This document shows positions 41,332-41,723 of a stretch of 64,000 nucleotides of DNA, piece by piece (position 1 is the stretch's first letter; the number at the start of each line of letters is the position of its first letter). The notes under the pieces are model-generated. The model made no database searches. It worked only from the letters and a program-made list of their open reading frames with translations, and was not told where the DNA came from. The DNA is from Promethearchaeati archaeon. GTDB lineage: Archaea > Asgardarchaeota > Heimdallarchaeia > JABLTI01. The translations under genes and the position numbers were made by a program. The stretch is taken from the NCBI GenBank assembly GCA_013166835.1, contig JABLTI010000001.1:1-64000 (forward strand), in the 5' to 3' direction.

Positions 41332-41419
41332 AAAGACCTGAAAATTGCTTCTAGAAACCATCTCGAGTAACAACTTGTGACCTCTAAATGAGTCTCTTAG
41401 TTGAGTTCTAAAAAAGTGA

Positions 41420-41440
41420 ATCCGCTTTATATATACCCTA
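41420..41440 (+). promoter_or_regulatory. archaeal TATA-box promoter for the micropeptide unit
   Basis: ATCCGCTTTATATATACCC about 50 bp upstream of ATG 41483. Confidence 0.55.
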
Positions 41441-41482
41441 GAGGATAGTATAATTAAGAACAAAACTCGGAGAAGAAAAAAA

Positions 41483-41569
41483 ATGAACAGAACAAAACAA
41501 AAAATTAGAGAACAAGTCAGAAAGGAAATCGAACAAACCAGATTTAAGACACTCTTAATTGGTTGTTAA
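41483..41569 (+). CDS. 28-aa basic micropeptide MNRTKQKIREQVRKEIEQTRFKTLLIGC
   Basis: ATG…TAA preceded by GGAGAAG Shine-Dalgarno (41469-41475). Similar to the next small ORF. Confidence 0.5.
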   Translation: MNRTKQKIREQVRKEIEQTRFKTLLIGC

Positions 41570-41604
41570 AAAAAATCTGAAGAAAAATTTGGAGGACACT
41601 AAAA

Positions 41605-41691
41605 ATGTTGAAAAGAAAAGAACTTCAAAAGAAAATCAAGCAAGATAGAGAAAAAGCAAGAATGAAATATCTCTTAATGACTGGAAGATAA
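41605..41691 (+). CDS. 28-aa basic micropeptide MLKRKELQKKIKQDREKARMKYLLMTGR
   Basis: ATG…TAA preceded by strong GGAGGA Shine-Dalgarno (41591-41596). Shares R-x-K-x-LL…G tail with the previous peptide. Confidence 0.55.
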   Translation: MLKRKELQKKIKQDREKARMKYLLMTGR

Positions 41692-41695
41692 TCGA

Positions 41696-41723
41696 TCTGC
41701 AATACTATCAAATAGCTTGCAGA
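41696..41723 (+). terminator. strong hairpin after the micropeptide ORFs
   Basis: TCTGCAA-TA-CTAT-CAA-ATAG-C-TTGCAGA: 11 paired bases with a small internal loop, 5 nt after the stop. Confidence 0.55.

Follow-up and report, generated by a model that had tools for sequence, protein, structure and literature searches.

Basic micropeptides of a dispersed family in Heimdallarchaeota probably share a regulon with bactofilins

Introduction

Bacterial bactofilins bind the membrane by a short N-terminal peptide and a client by a 13-aa peptide (PMC12448750). These stretches, the basic N-terminus of BacA (MFSKQAKS) and residues 1-13 of PbpC, link the bactofilin polymer to membrane or client, much as we propose for the peptides described here. 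Both are parts of larger proteins (PMC12448750), whereas the present peptides would be separate 28-aa proteins whose binding is putative. Very small proteins, often multi-copy as a class, are likewise known in archaea from the zinc-finger micro-proteins of Haloferax volcanii (PMC10716476). In contrast to these, the peptides described here lack the CPXCG zinc motif, are half the size and form a single homologous family in dispersed cassettes with dedicated promoters. A third point of comparison is PH1932 (PDB 1uly), an ArsR-like protein with the same DNA-binding fold as the c0 genes that lie divergent from many of our micropeptide operons. What sets c0 apart from such regulators is its pairing with micropeptide operons and the lack of a Pfam family of its own at threshold.

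Annotation scarcely detects families of micropeptides. In the present case the sequence by itself brought to light such a family, present in about a dozen copies per genome, together with promoters and partner regulators, and suggested bactofilin as a concrete partner. The host belongs to an Asgard lineage close to eukaryotes, and the family offers a testable way to study how small proteins may control a cell scaffold in an archaeon.

Results

A two-cistron operon in the window

The window, by which we mean the whole 64-kb stretch of DNA analysed, carries two micropeptide ORFs (Table 1). Upstream lie genes for SRP19 (PF01922, 1.4e-17) and Gar1 (a weak Pfam match of 5.9e-5, under its cut-off), and downstream a convergent ATP-NAD-kinase-like gene. 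The two are the sole ATG ORFs of 20-50 aa with a Shine-Dalgarno-like motif in the window's intergenic DNA (8% of the 64 kb). The initial annotation had described a self-contained operon, and at this locus we concur. Both ORFs have the coordinates and sequences reported for them, each is exactly 28 aa, both have good Shine-Dalgarno sites and the TATA-like element CTTTATATATA lies at 41425-41435. The hairpin said to follow the second stop was found as well, but its stem is not an uninterrupted 11 bp; instead, an outer stem encloses a bulged inner stem of 4 bp. In the L038 orthologue the outer stem is kept (9 bp) and the inner stem is lost, and the window hairpin has no T-run on its 3′ side; its role as a terminator is therefore unproven. 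The DNA CTCTTAAT common to both ORFs is also present, but represents merely homologous Leu-Leu codons. The initial annotation missed the conserved promoter upstream of the TATA box (41367-41434), as well as the paralogues that the genome contains at other sites.

Table 1. Positions of features at the window locus and of the duplicated cassette copies discussed below.
Feature	Position	Strand	Description
Palindromic upstream element	41367-41381	+	GTAACAACTTGTGAC, then CTC; candidate operator; conserved across an alignment of 19 promoters (6 genomes)
TTGAGT box	41401-41406	+	separates palindrome from core promoter; conserved across the aligned promoters
BRE/TATA core	41411-41434	+	AAAAAGTGAATCCGCTTTATATAT; 21 matches (<=3 mismatches) in 6 genomes of the genus
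Shine-Dalgarno site of ORF1	41469-41475	+	GGAGAAG, from sequence
Micropeptide ORF1	41483-41569	+	28 aa, MNRTKQKIREQVRKEIEQTRFKTLLIGC; E 6e-14 to a family profile built including both window ORFs
Shine-Dalgarno site of ORF2	41591-41596	+	GGAGGA, from sequence
Micropeptide ORF2	41605-41691	+	28 aa, MLKRKELQKKIKQDREKARMKYLLMTGR; E 1.3e-11 to the same profile, built including both window ORFs
3′ hairpin	41696-41723	+	outer stem TCTGCAA/TTGCAGA; -9.8 kcal/mol, z -3.7; possible transcript end
Duplicated cassette copies	L096:6847-7358, L097:6824-7334		same genome, unrelated sites

An Rfam search over the window region returned nothing credible. For a possible shared 3′ element, TTGCTTTTTTTATGTAC, just one micropeptide locus of the same genome gave a near-match and control counts were higher, so it was not used as evidence. 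Three further readings of the locus were set aside. A type II toxin-antitoxin pair does not fit the window cistrons, which are homologous to each other and contain no toxin domain or PADLOC match; a leader-peptide attenuator does not fit the window locus, where the next gene is convergent, and such an arrangement is true of some paralogues only. A role tied to SRP19/Gar1 was dismissed: homologues occur at many unrelated loci, and what these have in common is promoter and regulators.

The ORFs evolve as protein-coding genes

Frameshifts or missing codon-biased conservation in orthologues had been named in advance as signs against translation. The orthologues did not show this pattern: their frames are intact and dN/dS is below 1, as in protein-coding sequence. 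Over 25 orthologous pairs, pooled dN/dS was 0.24 (bootstrap 0.16-0.34), with 88 changes at third codon positions against 43 at first and 35 at second. Therefore, the peptides are under protein-level selection. The window pair alone gave a dN/dS of 0.47 from few changes, and ORF2 differs from its G006 orthologue by one amino-acid change and no synonymous one. Moreover, paralogues share similarity in protein, not in DNA. Two broken copies, which may be pseudogenes or assembly errors, were observed: L105 is interrupted by an in-frame stop (TAA), and the frame of one L081 copy (1454-1551) is broken where an A-run differs by one base.

Modelled with AlphaFold2 from a four-sequence alignment, the 33-aa L038 orthologue is a single helix over residues 2-27 (mean pLDDT 85.8). 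The peptides carry a mean net charge of +6.4 (range +4 to +10). Their amphipathic helical moment was not above that of shuffled sequences, which weakens a simple membrane-helix model.

A family of micropeptides essentially confined to one genus

Searching the same genome with each window peptide recovered homologous micropeptides on other contigs; the genome holds about 13 such ORFs on about 10 contigs. A profile of eleven members hit 14 places in this genome, 13 of them at E < 0.01 with two of those 13 weak, and other members match the window ORFs directly (E 8.5e-6 and 3e-4). Orthologues of ORF1 occupy the position of the window locus in G004, G006, G007, G008 and L038. Iterating the profile over 46 loci gave 68 ORFs, nearly all 27-33 aa from best start to stop. 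Residues R, L and G close to the C-terminus hardly vary, and the consensus is MxxKKxxIKxQIKKDxExxR[MI]K[FM]ALxTG[RA]. We define family Z as peptides of 27-33 aa that form a K/R-rich helix, carry R-x-K/R-x-[AL]-L-x-x-G near the C-terminus and match the profile significantly; both window ORFs belong to it. The claim of a translated, duplicated micropeptide family is thus borne out and much extended by family searches, profile and dN/dS, and we regard the gene family and its coding status as close to certain.

Among 58 related genomes, all 9 of the same genus contained 2-14 copies, and one weak match (E 0.0036) lay outside it. A 35-member profile was then run against 231 genomes from 63 genera of the phylum. 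Besides the 9 genomes of the genus it matched one genome of another family (E 7e-4), the only and borderline match among the other 222. This match, L153, is a two-peptide operon almost identical to L075 on contig C175 of the window's own genome, and would therefore reflect either gene transfer or binning contamination; all genomes used are MAGs, with contamination up to ~7%. Contigs of the relatives carry the label Candidatus Heimdallarchaeota. Neither Pfam, NCBIfam, PHROGs nor PADLOC gave a family above threshold for the peptides, and the literature, within the terms tried, gave no description of this micropeptide family or of Asgard bactofilin regulation. The family thus appears to be dispersed, previously undescribed and essentially restricted to one genus of Heimdallarchaeota, a restriction that rests on profile searches of 231 genomes, by which diverged homologues can be missed.

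Copies lie under several promoters

Copies form small transcription units with differing promoters, and the loci recur in several species. Type I is that of the window, between gar1 and the NAD kinase. Type II has a Rab-like GTPase fusion and an adenosine-specific kinase as neighbours; type III directly precedes c11, a gene with a C-terminal ArsR-type domain; type IV is found 3′ of a DNA methyltransferase and directly before bactofilin A; and type V is divergent from c0 (~211 aa, ArsR-like winged helix). Two further types adjoin other ArsR-like genes, c68 and c99, and another precedes a GNAT-like gene. At L149, L150, L151 and L076, where a micropeptide is directly 5′ of the GNAT-like gene, the promoter contains the inverted repeat GGTCACT...AGTGACC or GTGACCAC.

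In G006 about 450 bp comprising the promoter and both type II ORFs recurs almost unchanged at a second, unrelated site (97% over 512 bp with the edges; Table 1). The left edge of the duplicated segment is abrupt and falls at the palindrome. No inverted repeats or transposase were found at the copied cassette, and the left flank of the L097 copy had no match in the window's own genome that could represent the empty site. Units of promoter plus ORFs have been duplicated around the genome and placed under several promoters; the family shows a micropeptide cassette copied and re-wired under different regulators.

The window promoter is shared with bactofilin genes

Alignment of 19 promoters from 6 genomes revealed an arrangement common to types I, II and IV, namely AGTCACAAnTTGTGACCTC followed by TTGAGT and AAAAAGTGAATCCGCTTTATATAT, in which the palindrome has the consensus GTCACAA-N-TTGTGAC. 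The sequence CAACTTGTGACCTC occurs perfectly three times in the window's own genome, each time at a micropeptide locus. Seven genomes (six of the genus and outgroup G020) were searched for the 24-bp core, allowing up to 3 mismatches and using the reversed sequence as control. There were 21 sites in the six genomes of the genus, none in G020 and none for the control. Fifteen of the 21 precede operons of this micropeptide family, and in three of these (G006 C31, G004 C22 and G003 C227) the peptide lies directly before bactofilin A. A further four precede a bactofilin paralogue, B, that has no micropeptide cistron (G000 C72, G004 C55, G003 C205 and G008 C7), and the other two precede a different basic peptide of 32 aa (G000 C249 and G006 C40). 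None of the 21 precedes any other kind of gene. A diverged form of the same promoter, beyond the limit of the search, is found at other type IV loci (e.g. C123 of the window's own genome) and at bactofilin B of G007.

Both bactofilins match PF04519 (A, 2.1e-14; B, 1.8e-8), and a search with this model in six genomes recovered only A and B, plus a fragment of A in G006. Bactofilin A is strongly acidic (net charge -18) and B slightly so (-4). A regulon of bactofilins and micropeptides under a shared operator and core promoter is, on this distribution of sites, very probable.

Winged-helix genes accompany other copies

The c0 fold was assigned from HTH_5, matched by 8/8 members (best 3.3e-6), and from PDB 1uly (E 0.004). 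In eight genomes, c0 genes of the strong clade occupy 19 loci, and each of the 19 has beside it a divergent operon that encodes between one and three micropeptides. A candidate operator, TTCTCA-N5/6-TGAGAA, lies just before the TATA box at these loci, occasionally wider or with one half diverged. It occurs 15 times in the window's own genome against once for the reversed control. Several of the remaining sites there precede ordinary genes; therefore the motif may mark a wider regulon, or some sites may be chance. More distant c0 paralogues are mostly without operator and without peptides. The regulators and their peptides diversify together in sequence (Mantel r 0.52, p 0.002, n 8), which would be expected of modules that move or evolve as such.

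Discussion

As a whole, these data are best explained by co-regulated helical peptides of a dispersed family that act in trans, a reading to which we give about an even chance. A transcription factor would switch bactofilins and micropeptides on together, and the basic helices (+4 to +10) would work in trans, docking as small adaptors or modulators on the acidic bactofilin polymer and/or the membrane surface. That the peptides serve as adaptors or modulators of the bactofilin scaffold or of the nearby membrane is a tentative proposal. We consider it the most likely role since bactofilins and basic micropeptides are all that the promoter family of the window drives, and bacterial bactofilins bind via short peptides. 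The opposite charges of bactofilins A and B and the peptides are weakly compatible with docking. Many copies lack the bactofilin promoter, and the role of the family may hence be wider. More speculatively, and somewhat doubtfully, the peptides could constitute a control layer of an archaeal cytoskeleton in this genus, in which free 28-aa helices would be switched together with bactofilins and with winged-helix regulators of their own, and would reversibly modulate bactofilin assembly or membrane attachment.

We place the adaptor role ahead of its main rival, by which the peptides serve adjacent winged-helix proteins as ligands or co-regulators, the regulator repressing the operon and the peptide feeding back. 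The unbroken pairing of strong-clade c0 loci with divergent micropeptide operons, the position of the operator at the TATA box, the co-diversification and the presence of the different ArsR-like genes c11, c68 and c99 at other loci all speak for such a circuit. However, duplication of whole modules would also give co-diversification, and no winged-helix gene adjoins the window locus or the other units that carry the GTCACAA promoter; we think feedback of this kind unlikely as the function of the family. The RNA- or ribosome-binding role suggested by the initial annotation would suit peptides whose size and charge resemble those of tiny basic ribosomal proteins. Against it, the family is multi-copy and genus-restricted, its promoters look inducible, many Glu/Asp residues are conserved and the neighbours, the window locus excepted, are not translation genes, and it seems to us improbable.

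It is less probable still that these are toxin-like or antimicrobial cationic peptides, or the cargo of a self-spreading cassette. Orthologous loci are stable across the genus and under purifying selection, there is no immunity or transposase gene, terminal inverted repeats were not seen, and PADLOC and PHROGs gave no match, although a cationic helix, the recent copying of the ~450-bp cassette to a new site and the occasional broken copies (L105, L081) all speak for it. Cis-acting leader ORFs, tuning translation or transcription of the next gene, are suggested by loci at which a few tens of bases separate the end of the peptide from a downstream ORF (bactofilin A, c11, GNAT-like). Yet the amino-acid sequence is conserved among non-orthologous loci, and the window locus and many others have no downstream gene on the same strand, so we give this very little weight. 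Finally, the ORFs are short and the DNA upstream of them is conserved, as could be the case for a non-coding RNA or chance ORFs; a dN/dS of 0.24, paralogues that share protein and not DNA, exact start and stop lengths and the lack of an Rfam match leave this with a negligible probability.

The divergent modules of c0 and micropeptides were seen at L068, L070, L074, L081, L083, L085, L098, L102, L105, L107 and L117-L120. Operons divergent from c0 also hold other small-peptide families, namely X (ending ILLTMYYSDGLI), Y and W. At L070, L081, L102 and L107, tandem arrays of c1, encoding secreted or membrane proteins of ~320 aa, adjoin the winged-helix/micropeptide modules. In three genomes (L121, L122 and L123) a conserved 36-aa peptide, MSQP...LLLSHR, is divergent from a more distant c0.
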